Shown here one piece after another: positions 10,065 through 58,770 of a DNA stretch of 64,000 nucleotides (the stretch's first letter is position 1; every line of letters begins with the position of its first letter). Location: NCBI RefSeq assembly GCF_019059575.1, contig NW_024881560.1, positions 1 to 64,000 of the forward strand, given 5' to 3'. Below the pieces are notes generated by a model. The model had not been told where the DNA came from and did no database searches. It was given only the letters and a program-made list of their open reading frames with translations. Source of the stretch: Amphibalanus amphitrite (taxonomy: Eukaryota > Arthropoda > Thecostraca > Balanomorpha > Balanidae). The translations under genes and the position numbers were made by a program.

Positions 10065-10868
10065 CAGGGTGATCCAAAAAATTTGGAACCCCTAACTTAA
10101 AATGTCCATAAGTCCGAAAGTGTTCACTTTATTGACAAATTGCGAACACCACTAGAAAAGCCATTAAATCCTCTAAAAATCACGTCAAATTGGTGCATGT
10201 ATGTTGTAAAGCATTGGCACACTATTGGCTTTTGGAATGAGCGTCAGAAAACTGAGTGAAACGAAATCGCCAAATGTTAACAATGCGCTGAAATCCGTTA
10301 GCACTCTATCTGTTGTCTTTTTGCGAATAACACCACATCCAAATTCAATTTTATTACATAAAAGTTTACACAGAAGCACAGAGTAGAACAGATACACGCG
10401 TTCTAGCTTCCGCTGTTCATCCCTGCCATGTGCTCAACGCGAGCTCCGTGGGCCGTCACGCAGGCCTGCAGTTGCTTGGGGACAGCTCCGACTGCGCGGA
10501 CCAGCAGTCTCTGGGACAACTGGTCCCAGCAGGTCGTCAGCCTCGGTCAGCCTTTCCTTTCCTTACAATAGCACGTGAATGAACTACTTTTATTCATGAA
10601 CCTCCAACAAGCGACATGGTCAGAATAGCAAACCGTCAATCACTGATTTGCGCATAATGTTCAAAACCGTTTCACTGAGTTTCGTGACACAAATTTTATA
10701 GGCATATGTCTAGGGTAATATTTATATTAATAATCAAGTCCAATCAACTTGGTTTTATAGAAAATTGAACGCTCTTTCTAATGGTGCTTGGAATTTGTCA
10801 ATAAAGTGAAAATTTTCTGACTTACAGACATTTTAAGTTAGGGGTTCCAATTTTTTTGGATCACCCTG
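10065..10868. mobile_element. Short Tc1/mariner-superfamily element with TA duplication
   Basis: The ends are CAGGGTGATCCAAAAAATTT and its reverse complement (mismatched at a few bases), and the inverted match extends for about 45 bp. TA flanks both sides. The uninterrupted relative at 62.37 kb has a single TA at the equivalent place, so the filled and empty sites are both present in the window. At 804 bp it is too short for a full transposase and keeps only a C-terminal remnant. Confidence 0.8.
10403..10530 (-). pseudogene. Transposase C-terminal remnant (Tc1/mariner type)
   Basis: Reading the minus strand gives a frame with WDQLSQRLLVRAVGAVPKQL followed by QACVTAHGARVEH and a stop at 10403-10405. 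This resembles the usual end of Tc1/mariner transposases, where a short helix around 'P-K-R/Q-L' precedes an 'A-x-G-G/A' motif and the stop. No upstream catalytic domain is present. The fragment is non-functional but confirms the class of the surrounding element. Confidence 0.5.
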
Positions 10869-32898: not shown

Positions 32899-33092
32899 AT
32901 GGACGGCGAGAACCGAATCCTGCTCAATGTGGGCGGCATCCGGTTCGAGACGTACAAGGCCACGCTGAAGAAGATCCCGGCCACGCGGTTGTCCCGGCTG
33001 ACCGAGGCGCTCGCCAACTTCGACCCCGTGCTCAACGAGTTCTTCTTCGACCGGCACCCGGGCGTGTTCGCGCAGATCCTCAACTATTACCG
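32899..33092 (+). CDS. Shaw: Shaw exon 1: start codon and N-terminal T1 domain
   Basis: The exon encodes residues 1-64 plus two bases of Arg65, and the donor GTGAGT follows at 33093. The peptide opens [20 protein letters not shown] and continues through [11 protein letters not shown] to LNYY, the first half of the Kv T1 domain, which selects partner subunits of the same subfamily. The ATG at 32899 was chosen because it lies directly before the conserved 'ENR-I/V-L-L-N-V-G-G' start. The upstream in-frame codons are not conserved and begin with a GTG. Confidence 0.93.
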
Positions 33093-36000
33093 GTGAGTGC
33101 CGGTCCACTGCGGCCACTGGACGCGCTCACAGCTCGTTAGAGAGCCGTCAGAGTGGCCCGCGCCGGGGTGACTGGGCGCTCTGAGCTGACAGACACTGCC
33201 ACCGCACAGCTACGAGCCGTGCGCTGGTGAAAATGGTGGGACTGCGATTTGACTATCTGACTACGGAGTACGGACAAAGGGAAACGAGTTTGAACTCTTA
33301 AATGCGTTTCATAACCTAATACTAATTATTATTAATGGACCAATAAATAATTGTTTGCTCTAGAATCGAGTGTGGCCATTCACGCACTTAAATTTTCATT
33401 TGACACCTATGGCGCGACCACAAGCAAGAATAACGATTCTTTGCGTTTCCCGGCACAATATTCAGAGTTGTGTCTTGCATGTATGTATTCAGTGTTCTAC
33501 ATAAACGAGCAGCTCATCAATATCCAGCGCCAATCAGCGTCTGGGTAGTTATAACTACATTAGTCAGTGGCCAGCGCACCCATACGTGACGGTCCTCGCG
33601 ATGTGCGTTTGCAGGACGGGGAAGCTGCACTACCCGACCAACGTGTGCGGCCCACTGTTCGAGGAAGAGCTGGAGTTCTGGGGCCTCGACTCGAACCAGG
33701 TGGAGCCCTGCTGCTGGATGACCTACACCAAACACAGGGACACACAGGTACGGATGACCTGCACCAAACACAGGGACACACAGGTACGGATGACTAACAC
33801 CAAACACAGGGACACTCAGGTACGGATGACCTACACCAAACACAGGGACACTCAGGTACGGATGACTAACACCAAACACAGGGACACTCAGGTACGGATG
33901 ACCTACACCAAACACAGGGACACTCAGGTACGGATGACCTACACCAAGCACAGGGACACACAGGTAATGATGACCTACACCAAACACAGGGACACTCTGG
34001 TACGGATGACCTACACCAAACACAGGGACACTCAGGTACGGATGACCTACACCAAACACAGGGACACTCAGGTACGGATGACCTACACCAAACACAGGGA
34101 CACACAGGTAATGATGACCTACACCAAACACAGGGACACTCAGGTACGGATGACCTACACCAAACACAGGGACACTCAGGTACGGACTACGGATGGCCTG
34201 CACCGAACACAGGAACACAGGGTACAAGTAACCTACACCAAACACAGGGACACACAGGTACGGATGACCTACACCAAACACAGGGACACTCAGGTACGGA
34301 TGACCTACACCAAACACAGGGACACTCAGGTACGGATGACCTACACCAAACACAGGGACACTCAGGTACGAATGACCTACACCAAACACAGGGACACTCA
34401 GGTACGGATGACCTACACCAAACACAGGGACACACAGGTACGGATGACCTACACCAAACACAGGGACACTCAGGTACGGATGACCTACACCAAACACAGG
34501 GACACTCAGGTACGAATGACCTACACCAAACACAGGGACACTCAGGTAATGATGACCTACACCAAACACAGGGACACTCAGGTACGGATGACCTACACCA
34601 AGCACAGGAACACACAGATATGCTGCCACTGAAGTGTTATCTACAGCAAACACAGTCATTTAGGGGCTGATTTGTTGATGGTTCTCGAATGCTGCGAACA
34701 ATCTGGTCCGCACACATTGTTACGTAAGCGCACAAAGCGCCGTCATTTGTACATAAAGCGCAATTGCTTTTACCATGCACGACTTCCATAGAAGGCGCTC
34801 GGGATCAGTAGGGCTTAGCTGCCTGGAAACCTGGAAAAGGAGGCCGAAAAGCATACCTAATGCGCTTTGTGCACATACCTACCAATTATAAATACGGTGT
34901 TTCGTCATATATGTACCAATGCAGAAAGTATTTAATCTATTTGCGACTTTATTTGCCTTTTCTTTGTCACTACTCACCAAAAAGGCGCTCAACCACAAAC
35001 AGTACAATCAACAATGTCAAGTAAGTCGGACAGAGACGCATTCCATCTCTCAGGGTTTATGGAAGCAGCCTCGCCGGGCGAAGCCTTAACCCTCGCCGGC
35101 CGAGGGGGGGGGGGGGCGGGTGCCGCCCCCCATAGGGTTTTTTCGCGATAGCTCCGAACACGCTGGCGATAGAGAGCTGAAACTTGGCATACCTGACCTT
35201 TGATCCAAGCCGGATCTTTTGACACCAACCGCATTTTTGGGTCAGGTCAGGTCACTGACCTATGACGTCATAAGTGAACCTCTGCACGGTCTTCAGATGT
35301 CGCAACTTCGCAACGCCCTCACTGCCAGAGGAGATGTCACAGGGAAATGAAACTTGCAGGATCTAGTATCCATTATAAGTCTCACAACTTGTATATCTCG
35401 GATTTTTCCTAAAGGTCATATGAGGTCAGGTCATTTTCGTGACCTCACCATTATAAGTCAATGGGGAAAAATGAAAACTGCTATTCTGGCGCCGGGAACG
35501 ATCTCCAACTATCTCAAGCACACAGAATCGTGATTTTATGCACTCCTTGCAAGGTTAGATGCGTCACTTTTGCAATGTTGACCTTGTGTGACGTCATTTA
35601 TGACGTCATCAAGGTCATATTCGTTTTTCGTCAATAACTCTTGATCAAATTGAGCTAGCGAGTCGGGAAAGCCATCAATGGACTCAGGAAGACCTGCCGA
35701 ATCGAATGATATGCGACATGACCTCTTTCGACCTACTTCGTGACCTTAGGGTGCTGACCTGACCTTGACCTGAGGTCAACACCCCAAGTTGACCTGACCC
35801 GAACACAAAGTACATCATTCGACGCGCCTGAGCGAGGCGAACACGATGCTGCCAAAATCGCGGCTCTGCGGCCGTTTTTTGCGAAGTTATTCACCAAAAA
35901 CTGAACCGTACCCTGGGGCACTTGACCTGACCTCAGAGGTCACCGGTTGACCTAGGACCTTAAAATCGGGTACCAATCTCTGCGTCTCGTAACGGCGCAC

Positions 36001-39000
36001 ACGCTCGTTTTTTCCGCGATGCGCTAGTTCCACCAGGGGCGAAACGGCGAGGGGGGGGTCGTACCCGCCCCCCCCCCCCTCGGCCGGCGCGTATGTAGAA
36101 AACCAATAGGTCCGGCGAGGGTTAAGTCTTTGCGAAAACGTTCAATCTTCATTGGTAGTATATCCGCATTGTCTCGGGGAAAATCAATCAGACTCAAGCC
36201 GTCTTTGTTCCGTTGATATTGCTCTCAGGAATACAAACAAACGACCCACCGCTCCAATATAAATGGTCTTTCAGGGGCCCTGGCACCTGGAAAGCATTTA
36301 TCGGTCAGCCGTGCGGCAACGTAGTACAGTGCGATATATATTAACCGTACCGTAAAGTAAAATACTACCGTACCGGAGACAGGCGTAGTTGGCGCATGCG
36401 CCGTACGAGCGCATCGCCTAGCCGCCATTGTCGCTTCAGAGCTTAACCGCAGCGGACACGAGTGGTTTCTGCGAGTGATTTCTTCTGTCGTGAGTACACA
36501 TTACGGGCGTTATGAGCCCCGCTTGCGAGCACAAGCAGCTATAGCCCGGTGAATTCCCTGTGTTGGGTGCCTGTCCAGGCTGCGGCAGTAAAAAGTCAAG
36601 TCTCCCGTACGTCTTCTCGCGGTTCGGTGGGGGTATGGGCGTGGTCACCTCACCAAAAAACCAGATGGACGTGAATACAGTCCCATTGTCACACTGCATC
36701 TGGTTTTGTTGCAAGCGCGAGCTCGACGGATAAATGGTCTTTCAGGGGCCCTGGCACCTGGAAAGCATTTATCGGTCAGCCGTGCGGCAACGTAGTACAG
36801 TGCGATATATATTAACCGTACCGTAAAGTAAAATACTACCGTACCGGAGACAGGCATAGTTGGCGCATGCGCCGTACGAGCGCATCGCCTAGCCGCCATT
36901 GTCGCTTCAGAGCTTAACCGCAGCGGACACGAGTGGTTTCTCCCACCACCGGCCCCATGCGCCCTGCCGTTAATTAAGGTGTTAGGTATTGAGTGTTTAG
37001 TATGCGTCGCCTACCGGATTGTATTCCTGTGTGCCATGTGGTCACCTCACCAAAAAACCAGATGGACGTGAATACAGTCCCATTGTCACACTGCATCTGG
37101 TTTTGTTGCAAGCGCGAGCTCGACGGATAAATACAATCAGAGTGTCGTATCCACCGTACATATGAAGGCGCTGTGCACGCTGCAGCCGGTCGCCACCGAT
37201 TAGGTCCAGTGCAGCTAATCGGCAGTCTCCCTGTGGGCTGTATCCTCGGGCGGGCTCTGACTCTGTGGCGAGCTGCTCGCTCGGACGTGATCAGGATGAC
37301 GCCGCCAGCGCTGCGACTCGGGCCGAGCGGCGCGGTGCGGTGCCGCCGGCCGAGCTGCCGGCTCCGCGCCCCGGGCGCGGGGTCGTGGGGCGTAGGGCAT
37401 ACGCCACCGAACTAAATCGTCAACTAAATATTTTTCTTTTATATAGCAGGCATGATTTTTAAACTCTGCTCTTAACCATTTAGAAAGGGCTGGCTATTTG
37501 AAAGGATGCTCGGCTATAAATACTTACCATCTACACCTTAGTCAAATGTCACACCAACGGCCAACCAATCATTTAAGGGCTTTATCCAAGGTGTTCTATG
37601 GTGGGGTGTTCCCACGGTTCTTTACCGCTGTCCTAAATTGTCACCGAATGTAGACGGCTTGCCGGGAGGATCTTCCCTCTGCGATTGGTGCCGCCATTCA
37701 TTGAGGAGAGGGTCGTTTGGCGGCCGGGGCTGGCACCCGGCTCAGCAGTGGAGCATCGGCCGCCGCTGGGTGGGCTGTTACCAGGCAGGGACAGAGAGGG
37801 GAGGGGAGAGGTGTGCGTGCTGCTGGGAACAGAGCTCAGCTCGACTGTCGGATTATACGGCTTGTCGGAGACTTTAGGTCTAAAATATCCGCAGCCGGAG
37901 GTTTTTCTGTTGGTGGTGAGCTGGATCTCGCCCTCAAAATTAAATAGAGGGGAGGTGTGCGGCCGCTGTTTCCTGGCTGTTTAAATATTTAAAGCTTTCA
38001 GCTATGCAGCATATGTATTTCCATCGCGTGACTGCGGTATATTCAAAAAGTTGCCCACTGCAGCGCTGACCACTCCAGTCTGGGGGCCGCCATTTGATGC
38101 TGACACTGCCCTGTCTGTACCCGAAGACGACGCTGGCCATCCTGGACAAGCTGGACCTGGACTCTGAGCGTCCCTCCGAGGAGGAGGTGGCCAGGAAGTT
38201 CGGCTTCGAGGAGGACTACCTCAGCGGCAACCTCTCCTGCTGGCAGAAGGTCAAGCCGAAAATATGGAGTCTCTTCGACGAGCCCTACTCCTGCTCCGCT
38301 GCCAAGGTGGGCCGATCTGTTACTGCTTTTAACAATTTAGGGGTCACTACAAACCAGGTTGACTAGATTGAGCGGATAGGAGTCTATGCAATTGGTATCA
38401 CTGCTGTGCTATTGCTCTATGTCGCTCATTAAAACCCCATTTTGTCATCTGGAAATAATAAAACTAAAACGCTAAGCTCTTAAGTCCGCTCTTTACTGTC
38501 ACGTTGGCCATTTGAGACTCGTTAAATTCGGACCGTACTCGGCGCCTCCTGTTGAAGAGCAGCCGTTCTAATTGCGCGGATGCTTGGCTTTCCACTGGAT
38601 CTGTGCAGTTAGCACTCGGCTCTCGCGGGATTCTCCGGCTAACGTGGTGCTGCGCAAAACGGGAGATTGGCCGTTAAATATGCCGGGGAAAGCAATGCCC
38701 GCTGTCAGTTACCTCCTGTTCTGTGATCGACAAGTGTTCATCCAGTTTTCATGGTGTTCAATTCGAGCGGTGGAAAGTAGCGGAAAGTCGGAATTTATAT
38801 GTGTATTGAGCGTTGAAATTCCAATGTGGCTCACCTGCGCTATATTTTGCCACCCTGCTTATTTAGATCGACATTTAACAATTGTGTAAATAAGCATTAT
38901 GGAGTACCGGTAAATACTTTTACTTTTTCAAATTATGCCTCAATCCCACAAACATTTTGCATTTTCATGTTGCAAAACGTACGACTGCCATACTACATAA

Positions 39001-39911
39001 AACATTCGGTATCAATTCTACGGCCACAGGGGCGGTAATTTTATTCCTTCGTAAATCATGATAATTCATGAATATCTGAAATTGGCCGGCCCCTGGGTGC
39101 CACCGAGCCAGAGCTATCGACTCTTTCGGGGGCTGCCGTCGGGTGGATTTGTCTGTAGTGCGAGGTCACCGTAGGAAGTGTGTGGTGTTGGTCACTGGCT
39201 GCTTTTCTTCCCTGTGCTGCTAGTGCTTTCCTATATTTACTTGAACTATTGGGTTGATTATTTGGGGTTCTACTTCGAGAGGTGCTTTACTGAGCAGATT
39301 CGTTGTGTCGGCAGGTGGTGGCTGTGATATCGGTGTTTTTCATTGTGGTCTCCATCTTGTCGTTCTGCCTGAAGACGCACCCCAACATGCGCGTGCCCGT
39401 GATCCGTAACGTCACCACCATGGACGGCAACCGGAGCGCTGTCTGGACGCTGGACAAGAGCCGCACCGACCCGCACCGCGCCTTCCTCTACGTCGAGCTC
39501 GCCTGCAACGTCTGGTTCACATTCGAGATCATCATCCGCTTCATCGTCAGTCCCGTCAAGCTCGACTTCATCAAGTCGCCGGTCAACATCATCGACTTCA
39601 TCGCCACGCTCAGCTTCTACACGGACATGCTGACTGACTACCTGCTGGTGAAGTTCCGCAGGGACCTCACCAACGCCGACATCCTAGAGTTTTTCAGCAT
39701 CATCCGCATCCTGCGGCTCTTCAAGCTGACCCGGCACTCGCCCGGCCTGAAAATCCTCATCCACACGTTCAAAGCCAGTGCCAAAGAGCTCACCCTCCTC
39801 GTCTTCTTCCTCATACTCGGCATCGTCATCTTCGCGTCGCTGGTCTACTACGCCGAGCGGCTGCAGGCCAACCCGTACAATGACTTCAAGAGCATCCCGG
39901 AGGGCCTATGG

Positions 39912-39952
<41 letters not shown>

Positions 39953-42900
39953 GGTGCCCAAGACGTACGTGGGGATGCTGGTGGGCGCGCTGTGCGCCAT
40001 CGCCGGCGTGCTCACCATCTCGCTGCCCGTGCCCGTCATCGTCTCCAACTTCTCCAACGTCTACTCCCACACGCAGGTGAGCACGAGGCGGGCGATTCTC
40101 CTCAGCTTAACGACGAGTGTAGGACGTAGGTCCAGGGTGGGGGATCCCGGGGAACTAACGAGCGGTGGTCTAATATTTGTTGATGTTGCCGTCAAAGGTC
40201 AGACATTTGTGTCGGTTTCATCTGATGCTGATCAGCTTGGTGTATTTCGAGAAACTGTTGCGTCTCGGGTTCGTCTGCCACACCGTCAGCTGGTAGTTAA
40301 AACTCTTCTGACTTTTCCTCTTGACCTGAACATTCATCTACGTAACATAAGCGGCAAAATTAGCCAGCCTCTGAAAGCGGACGCTAATTGTGGGTTAGCT
40401 CTCGGAACACGTGCGGTAAACGTCCGTGGCCATTCTTTCCCGTCGGGTGGTCGGCTAATGGATTCCGACAACGGAGGCAGCCGGCGCGCTCTCAGACTAT
40501 GTTTATCACCGGAGATGCTGCTGAGCGCTCACGGCTCCAACTGGTGTCCGTCCCCTCTCCACCCACCCTGCCCCTCCACCGCTCTGCTGCTCCGTTTACG
40601 TAGCGCTAACCGTTCGCAAAACACAGCCGTCCGCGGACAGATGCCGTACACACCTCACACGCACCCAATTCGACTCGGGAGTCACAGAAGTCGACTCGAA
40701 AGTCGCAGAGGCTGACTCGTGGCGGCAGGGTCGACTCTGAGTCGCGGATGTCGCCGAGATGGATAGTGCGTTCCGGCTGATCGGATCAGTCGCAGTGCCG
40801 CTGTCAATATCGTAGCTTTGATTTTAGCTAGGCAATCGCCAGCCGCTTGAGTGCTCCGAGGCTATTTGTACTTACTACAAACCAGTAAAACGCCTTTTGG
40901 GCGAAGAACGAGCGAGCGAGATAGTGAGCCCTGCACGTGCAGAAGGGCGAGAGGGTACTTCCAACGGGCTTGTGCAAAGCACCCTTCTAGCCGGTCGCTA
41001 GCGGTGTGCCAAATTTGAACGCAATCGGCCCAGCCGTTCCTGAGATCTGGAAGCGGCATTCTGCACGTGCGCACGTGCAAACGGGGTCCAAAATGACTTT
41101 TGCACGGCACCCTACTAACCGGTCCCCAACCGTGCACCAAATTTGAGCGCAATCAGCCCAGCCGTTCTCGAGATCTGGAAACGCCCCTTGCACGTGCGCA
41201 CGTGCAGTAGCACCCTAACCGCAACACATGGGAATGCATTGCCTGGTGGGTGCCTACCTGTATGCCAAGTTTCAGCGAAATCGCCCCAGTAATTACCGAG
41301 TTACTGAAATGGGAACAAATTTGGCACCTCTTATTGTTGTATTTTGCACGTGCAGTGGGGGTCACTCACATAGATGAAGAGTATCCGACCTTTGGTAGAA
41401 GGGATGCAGCTACCCTATAAAAATGACCGCAAGACAATCGCTCAAGCCGCTGCTGAGATATGGGCCTCTCAAAATCATTACTTTTGCAAAACTGCTTGAA
41501 CACCCTTGACTTTTCACGTGGCACGTGCCACGGCGGTCACTGAGATGTATCAAAAGTAGTCAATTACGGGGTAGAAGGGATGGGGCTACCCAGCAAAAAA
41601 GACCGCAGGCCAATCGGTCCAGCGGTTGCTGAGATATAAGCCTCTCAAAAGCGTTACAGGCCGGGCCGGGCCGGGCCGGGCCGGGCCGGGCCGGGCCGGG
41701 CCGCTCATACTGAGATTTTTCCCTTATATTGAAAAGACTCGCTTCGCTCGCTGCGCTCGCTCGCTCGTAATTACAACCGGTGTATCTCAATATTTGTTCC
41801 TTTTAGACGTGCAAGCATTAGCGTCGCCACGGGGGGCAAGCGGGGCAGCTTGCCCCCCCAACCTCGGACCGGGCACCCCCTGAGATCGATACAGATCCGA
41901 TGAGATTTTGGAGTCGGGAAAAAATGGGGGTACCTTTCTGAGAATGCCTGTGAGGTCAGACTCGTTCAAGCCAGAGTCGGAGTCGCAGTCGCCAACATCG
42001 TCAAAACACCGACTCCAGACTCGGAAGTGTCAATACTGTGATTCATTTCATGTTCCTCGTTGGTTTTTTATTACATTTTATAGCTGATTTTCATAAGTTT
42101 TGAAGTGCTGATACAAAATTTGCGTTCAAAGCGTGACACTGAATCTTCGGGCCTTTCTCAACTCTCGTCAAATGTCTGCGACAGACTCAAGTACCGTTCA
42201 AGTGCCACAGGGCTCATGACTGCTTGCTTTTCACACAGGCTCCGAAGGAGCTCCACTGAGCTCTAAGAAGCCTTCAGAGGGCACAAACCGGCCTCTGAGA
42301 GTCCCACTGGTGTTCATATTCTCTGAGGGCCCATACAGGAATCTTTGAGGACCTTACACATGCGTAGACCTCTGAAGGGCCACACGGATCTTTGAGGATA
42401 CTTTTAAATATTTCTGAGAACCTTAGGCCTCTGATAGCTCAGCCGAGCTTTTGAGGCGACAGATTTTGCTGAGCCTAAGCCTGCAGTTTAGGGGTCACGA
42501 CTCGGGTGTGCCTCTGAGGGTCCCAGCACATGTTTCTTATGTCCCTATGTAGGGTCCTTAGGGATTCGACACAGACCTCCAGGGTTCACACTGCTATTTG
42601 AGGGCTCCCTGCTCACCCTGGGCCTGGTCTCTTAGCGCCCGCCGCCGGCGCCGCCCACACTGGCTTCTGAGGGTCCCACCTTGGGCTCGGAAAGCCCTAA
42701 AGCACCACATATGTACACGTAACTATTTGGGGTGACCAGCGCCGATTTTCAGGATCCTAAGCAGGCTTCTGAGAGCCCACACTGACCCTGAGTGGCCTAA
42801 AATGGCCTGGAAGTCCCAAGCCTATCGCTAAAGGATCCCTTGTCGCTATGCCGTGCGAAATTTTGGTTCCGTTAAACGTCTTTTCTTCGCGTTTGCAGCG

Positions 42901-58189: not shown

Positions 58190-58770
58190 AAGTCTGTGAG
58201 CCGGTCTTCTCGTCTCATAGTCTGTACCCCGGCCCTCTCTTCCTATAGTCTGTGAGCCGGCCCTTTCGTCCATAGTCTGTACGTACGCCGGCCCTCTTTT
58301 CCTGTAGACTGTGAGCCGGTCCTCTCGTCCTATAGTCTGTACCTAAGCCGGTCCTCTCGTCCTATAGACTGTGAGCCGGCCCTCTCGTCCTATAGTCTGT
58401 GAGCCGGTCCTCTCGTCCTATATTCTGTGAGCCGGTTCTCTCGTCTTATAGACTGTGAGCCGGTCCTCTCATCCTATAGACTGTGAGCCGGTCCTCTCGT
58501 CCTATAGACTGTGAGCCGGTCCTCTCGCCCTATAGACTGTGAGCCGGTCCTCTCGTCCTATAGACTGTGAGCCGTTCCTCTCATCCTATAGACTGTTAGC
58601 CGGTCCTCTCGTCTTATAGACTGTGAGCCGGTCCTCTCGTCCTATAGACTGTGAGCCGGTCCTCACAGTCACGTTCTATAGACTGTGGTCTGTGATCCAG
58701 CCCTCGCCCCTCTCACCATATAGACTGTGAGCCGGTCCTCTCGTCCTATATTCTGTAAGCCCTCTCGTCC
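58190..58770 (+). repeat. 28-bp minisatellite (about 20 copies)
   Basis: The unit CTGTGAGCCGGTCCTCTCGT plus CCTATAGA repeats head to tail. The central copies (58450-58660) are nearly identical, and the outer ones have drifted or carry insertions such as 'acctaagc'. No function is implied. Confidence 0.9.

Follow-up and report, generated by a model that had tools for sequence, protein, structure and literature searches.

A minisatellite of 5' splice sites in a Shaw-type potassium channel gene of Amphibalanus amphitrite

A Shaw/Kv3-type voltage-gated K+ channel gene of Amphibalanus amphitrite carries a 36-bp minisatellite in which the end of exon 2 and the 5' splice site (donor) that follows it are repeated together. 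The gene lies in a window of 64 kb at the start of contig C63 (NW_024881560.1), in an assembly of 807.6 Mb and 2644 contigs, and position numbers refer to this window where no other contig is named. With moderate confidence, we regard the array as a tolerated, length-polymorphic duplication of the donor, with a dominant first donor and leaky in-frame use of later ones.

A donor array at the end of exon 2

The joined exons 1–4 match the BTB_2 domain (PF02214, E 1.4e-29) and the Ion_trans domain (PF00520, E 1.2e-49). Their best match among solved structures is Kv3.1 (7pqt, E 1.5e-131), and the Shaw T1 structure 3kvt aligns to residues 1–115 of the joined-exon protein. The His and Cys positions of an HX5CX20CC motif, whose spacing we take to be that of the Shaw/Kv3 zinc-type T1, are located in the T1 domain of the window gene. 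The start of exon 3 at 38127 is backed by the protein match and by exon 3 of a paralogue (contigs C17 and C80) in the same phase. The gene is laid out as follows (a slash marks the exon–intron boundary).

32899..33092, + strand: first coding exon, donor CCG/GTGAGT, R codon split with exon 2 (translation, paralogue match)
33615..33747, + strand: exon 2, end of the T1 domain (translation, paralogue; BTB_2 match)
33748..38126, + strand: intron 2, 4379 nt, as against 2256 nt in haplotype C695
38127..38306, + strand: exon 3, TTLAILD...SAAK, phase 0 (protein and paralogue match)
39315..40076, + strand: exon 4, membrane domain, Ion_trans (translation, Pfam)

Tandem Repeats Finder reports the minisatellite at 33716–34617 with 24.9 copies and a score of 1503. 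It starts within the final 30 nt of that exon and extends ~0.9 kb into intron 2, which gives the layout of an array that runs from the end of a coding exon into the intron (start at 33716, exon end at 33747). The 36-bp repeat of exon end and donor that the preliminary description of this DNA had claimed is thus borne out. The pattern CAGGTACGGATGACC, searched with at most three mismatches, occurs 24 times in the window, and all but one of these occurrences (23) lie inside the array; 1.20 were expected on average, and none of 100 shuffles reached 24. The parts of the array are these.

33716..34617, + strand: 36-bp minisatellite of exon 2 end plus donor, about 25 units (Tandem Repeats Finder; unit table)
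33748..33753, + strand: first donor, GTACGG, presumably the one mainly used for intron 2 (sequence; identical donor in paralogue C17)
33784..34587, + strand: the other 23 GT donors, each in phase 0, 36 to 834 nt beyond the first (donor list)
34180..34257, + strand: odd part of the array, with 78 nt between a donor and the next but one, AGG/GTACAA at 34222 (unit spacing)
34618..34623, + strand: end of the final unit without GT, CAG/ATATGC (unit table)

GT is present at 24 of the 25 unit ends, and CAG/GT at 22 of those. Seventeen of the 24 donors read CAG/GTACGG, two CAG/GTACGA, three CAG/GTAATG, one CTG/GTACGG and one AGG/GTACAA, in exact agreement with the earlier count of 24 GT junctions and 19 donors of the first two types. 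As likewise claimed before, each of the 24 donors is in phase 0. We find in addition that the reading frame continues from exon 2 to every one of them without a stop. The phase is constant because the unit measures 36 bp, plus a single surplus of 6 bp in the odd unit; shared phase 0 is a consequence of unit length and not an independent sign of function.

Use of a later donor would insert the encoded repeats 11 residues past the last Cys of HX5CX20CC and 12 residues beyond the point where the BTB_2 match stops, which agrees with the earlier placement directly after the zinc-binding end of T1. The predicted insert amounts to ~12 residues per unit, including one Lys, two Arg, one His and one Asp. 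In Kv3.1, the T1–S1 linker is described as joining the T1 domain of each subunit to its voltage sensor (PMC12184066).

Two haplotypes with different arrays

A genome search with exon 2 returned 14 matches. These places form seven pairs with long matches of 91–95% identity, and the paired contigs are read as two haplotypes of one individual. The partner of the window is contig C695, which is collinear, with main pieces of 81.5–95.4% identity outside the array and several gaps. Its array contains 20 GT donors compared with 24 in the window, and unit number therefore differs between collinear haplotypes. Sixteen donors of C695 are spaced at 36 nt, followed by a rearranged end with spacings of 19, 38, 36 and 33; donors 5 and 8 are CAG/GTAAGG. 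Nineteen of the 20 donors are in phase 0 and one is out, and the frame is open to all 20. The 23 regular units of the window are of 10 kinds and the 16 of C695 are of 8 kinds, with two kinds common to both. Variation of unit number between chromosomes is a general trait of minisatellites. The preliminary description had proposed such variation between individuals; the number does vary, as seen here between what are read as the two haplotypes of one individual.

Assemblies can give a tandem array the wrong size. An artefact appears unlikely here because the collinear haplotype C695 holds its own, different version of the array. A false expansion of one or few units is hardly credible when two contigs contain differing units in differing order, with so few types in common, and when the C17/C80 paralogue itself holds 2.3 units.

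Donor strength and the single-donor paralogue

Pairing with U1 was computed at −7.3 kcal/mol for GTACGG; GTAATG comes to −8.1 and GTAAGG to −11.5. The donors of exon 1 and exon 3 of the same gene reach −8.9 and −8.8 kcal/mol. The 5' end of U1 used here was checked against the genome, in which 33 U1 matches were found and 20 were read. The canonical start ATACTTACCTG is present in 16 of these 20 U1-like genes, and no variant U1 that fits GTACGG was found among the 20 of 33 matches read. A diverged U1-like 5' end, ATACATCAGGC, occurs in three of the 20, and an altered extreme 5' end, GCTGTTACCTG, in one.

The C17/C80 paralogue serves as a control for the donor types. Its intron 2 measures only 225 nt (C17) or 227 nt (C80), with exon 3 next in phase 0, and the sole evident donor of this intron is CAG/GTACGG in C17 and CAG/GTAATG in C80. 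This suggests that both donor types are competent, because in each case the paralogue offers no other evident donor.

The relation between the two genes is uneven along their length. Over 132 positions of exon 2 (33616–33747), the window gene shows no difference from C17 but five differences from its own allele C695; exon 3 differs between the paralogues at 44 of 180. A recent gene conversion between the window gene and C17, confined to exon 2 and its surroundings, would account for this pattern, because exon 2 is identical to C17 yet unlike C695 while exon 3 has diverged. The exon 3 acceptor (38111–38126) is AAG in both haplotypes of the window gene, where the C17/C80 paralogue has CAG.

Constraint on the encoded repeats

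Across the four exons, the two haplotypes differ by 17 synonymous and no nonsynonymous changes over 423 codons. The distinct single-base variants in the 39 regular array units comprise 6 synonymous and 14 nonsynonymous changes; this count includes neither the odd unit at 34222 nor the terminal unit nor the rearranged units of C695. The array variants fit no constraint (binomial p 0.42 against an expected 0.225, which lies between the expectations without and with weighting for transitions). The comparison of array and exons gives a Fisher p of 6.5e-6, which is a guide only, as units within an array do not count as independent. The array variants show no exon-like coding constraint.

This observation bears on a reading in which the whole array is coding, with the last usable donor constitutive and the linker always longer by 220–280 residues or so. 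In either haplotype, indeed, no stop interrupts the frame before the last donor. However, residues and unit number drift freely, and no such insert exists in the paralogue with its intron of 225–227 nt, which makes this reading very improbable.

The net indels of the array keep the frame in both haplotypes, with +6 in C63 and, in C695, −17 followed by +2 as well as −3. In the flanking aligned introns, 8 of 35 indels are multiples of three and 27 are not.

Other candidate signs of selection or donor choice gave little. Invariance of the donor core (G/GTA) was rejected, as 16 of the 36 unit columns vary and the chance that four given columns stay invariant is ~0.08 (calculated by hand). The lack of in-frame stops is uninformative, since a stop would result from just 4 of the 108 single changes that can occur. 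Retrocopies that would record donor choice were not found, with 0 of 10 matches spanning the exon 2–3 junction. RNA folding of the array yielded nothing useful, the array being too long for shuffles.

Donor arrays elsewhere in the genome

A third Shaw paralogue (haplotypes C1012 and C111) ends exon 2 15 nt, or five codons, earlier than the other two paralogues do (MTYTQ/), and its next exon opens with HRDTQE. Its exon 2 donor is single in C1012 and present six times in C111, with a 20-bp unit (one of 19). Two further arrays follow receptor exons. On C20, 13 GT donors in 32- and 20-bp units stand directly after an exon of a 7tm_1 (rhodopsin-family) receptor (Pfam E 2.5e-11). On C667, CAG/GTAAGT occurs four times in 26-bp units after an exon that is receptor-like but matches no Pfam family. 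For the C20 exon no second haplotype was found (of 12 matches, one at 100% and the other 11 at no more than 49%). The C20 and C667 arrays were chosen by eye from pattern scans for paired strong donors (64 places; ~100 of 258 places).

C111, positions 10563-10681 of the concatenated reverse-complement segment: donor array, six copies (donor positions)
C20, about 505-875 within segment C20:1829300-1830900: donor array (donor positions, Pfam)
C667, about 198975-199115 within C667:198300-199900, minus strand: donor array (donor positions)

The extra GT donors are out of frame in 4 of 5 cases in C111, 8 of 12 in C20 and 2 of 3 in C667, in total 14 of 20 (remainders taken by hand). Such a majority of out-of-frame donors suggests to us that splicing mainly uses the first one.

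Genome-wide, pairs of AGGTAAGT were found at 64 places against 209 for the reversed control, and pairs of CAGGTGAGT at 258 against 21. Most of the places listed are dispersed short motifs, and we make no claim of a genome-wide enrichment of donor arrays. One such short motif, CAGGTGAGTTRAACAGGTGAGT, in which two donor-like 9-mers stand 13 bp apart, occurs at many dispersed places in the genome.

Among the 26 donor positions of six Shaw haplotypes, five overlap a tandem array or are no more than 30 bp away from it, and each of the five belongs to exon 2; for exon 1 of C1012 and C111, approximate ends of tblastn matches were used as positions. A position falls in the first 40 bp of an array at a base rate of 1.5–3.1%. 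Two independent origins among 13 donors then have a p of 0.016–0.060, or 0.135 at a rate of 5%. Donor arrays may be little more than a product of a minisatellite-rich genome where selection permits them.

Relation to known systems

The preliminary description knew of no described case with such a layout in a Kv channel. This holds as far as a search of the open-licence literature goes, which returned no donor array in a K+ channel and is a weak negative. The layout itself, however, has a precedent in human IFI6. The donor minisatellite of this gene (also 6-16 or G1P3) was reportedly described by Turri, Cuin and Porter in 1995 (NAR 23:1854). As in IFI6, the Shaw array runs from the end of a coding exon into the intron and has a donor-like sequence in each unit. 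The unit of IFI6 measures 12 nt, in 26 units that start near the end of exon 2, and adjacent donors are thus further apart here; the host is an ion channel gene rather than an interferon-induced one. Donor use is demonstrated for IFI6, with two downstream repeat units used and three mRNA species reported (PMC4526556), while use of later donors in the Shaw gene is a prediction.

Closely spaced donors also compete in DOK7 intron 4, where strength and adjacent bound factors are described as decisive (PMC5585400). DOK7 offers two donors compared with twenty or more here, and no repeat polymorphism figures in that account. Variable or repeated intronic DNA is tied to splice choice in TERT VNTR6-1 (PMC11830802) and in CeRep25B of C. 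elegans (PMC4039745). VNTR6-1 has a 38-bp unit in 24–66.5 copies, and its effect on splicing is explained there by G-quadruplexes. In contrast to the Shaw array, neither repeat is described in the passages concerned as containing the donor itself. TERT INS1 was considered as a second precedent and ruled out, as it is reported to extend exon 4 into intron 4 and does not involve the repeat of intron 6 (PMC11830802).

Choice among the donors

In the reading we favour, the exon 2/intron 2 junction would have been duplicated in tandem to give the 36-bp minisatellite, each copy with a donor and the preceding 30 exonic nt. The first donor (33748) would end exon 2 in most transcripts and the remaining array would leave with the intron. 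The array would be tolerated because the first donor still ends the exon and the rest is removed as intron. Some leak into later donors seems likely because their U1 pairing is near-equal to that of the first and their frame is kept. Such a leak, involving one or few units, would bring multiples of ~12 residues of basic character into the T1–S1 linker. The C695 allele would be expected to be leakier than that of the window, given its two strong CAG/GTAAGG donors (+48 and +84 residues). In favour of this reading, the gene is intact in both haplotypes while unit number and content differ between them. The mostly out-of-frame arrays that persist elsewhere in the genome, the donor types that stand alone in the C17/C80 paralogue and the two downstream units used in IFI6 (PMC4526556) also fit it. 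The preliminary description had left two options, namely that the first donor is always chosen and the rest is harmless intron, or that the array creates a ladder of isoforms. The former appears the likelier half, because the array variants are unconstrained and donor arrays elsewhere in the genome have mostly out-of-frame units.

Several points weigh against a dominant first donor. The exon 2 donor is rather weak and pairs less strongly than the exon 1 and exon 3 donors and the GTAAGG units of C695. Donors 1–6 of the window allele are identical 9-mers, and pairing therefore gives the first donor no edge, which makes some leak likely. In DOK7 intron 4 the intron-proximal of two donors is preferred, which is also the stronger one there (PMC5585400); by analogy, such a preference would shift the choice downstream. 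The frame-keeping indels are a faint hint of selection on the frame, with three events weighing little. The argument from out-of-frame arrays presumes that the genes at C20 and C667 are intact, which weakens it.

Some of these points lend weight to more substantial use of later donors, in at least 10% of transcripts, with the length of the T1–S1 linker set by the units and strong donors of each allele. A frame open to all donors of both arrays, with phase 0 at every window donor and at 19 of 20 in C695, would suit such a ladder of isoforms, as would the near-equal U1 pairing, the two far stronger donors of C695, the net frame kept in both arrays and the use of downstream units in IFI6 (PMC4526556). 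On the other hand, the encoded repeats are unconstrained, the in-frame spacing follows from unit length, and none of the 10 matches in the search for retrocopies spans such a junction. We consider this ladder possible but would not expect it. A wider proposal, in which splice donors repeatedly become minisatellites in this genome, each allele sets graded in-frame isoforms (mostly short for the window, +48 or +84 residues in the linker for C695) and repeat turnover tunes a K+ channel within the population, is doubtful.

The locus is a natural experiment in the choice of the spliceosome among many near-identical 5' splice sites. It comes with two natural alleles that differ in number, position and strength of donors in a nearly constant surrounding context, and the in-frame Shaw array can be compared with the mostly out-of-frame arrays of C111, C20 and C667 within one genome. 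If later donors are used, the minisatellite would be a fast-mutating dial on the linker length of the channel. If they are unused, the locus would show how far position overrides sequence.

Another minisatellite in the window

The window contains another sizeable minisatellite at 58194–58664, with a 28-bp unit in 16.6 copies.
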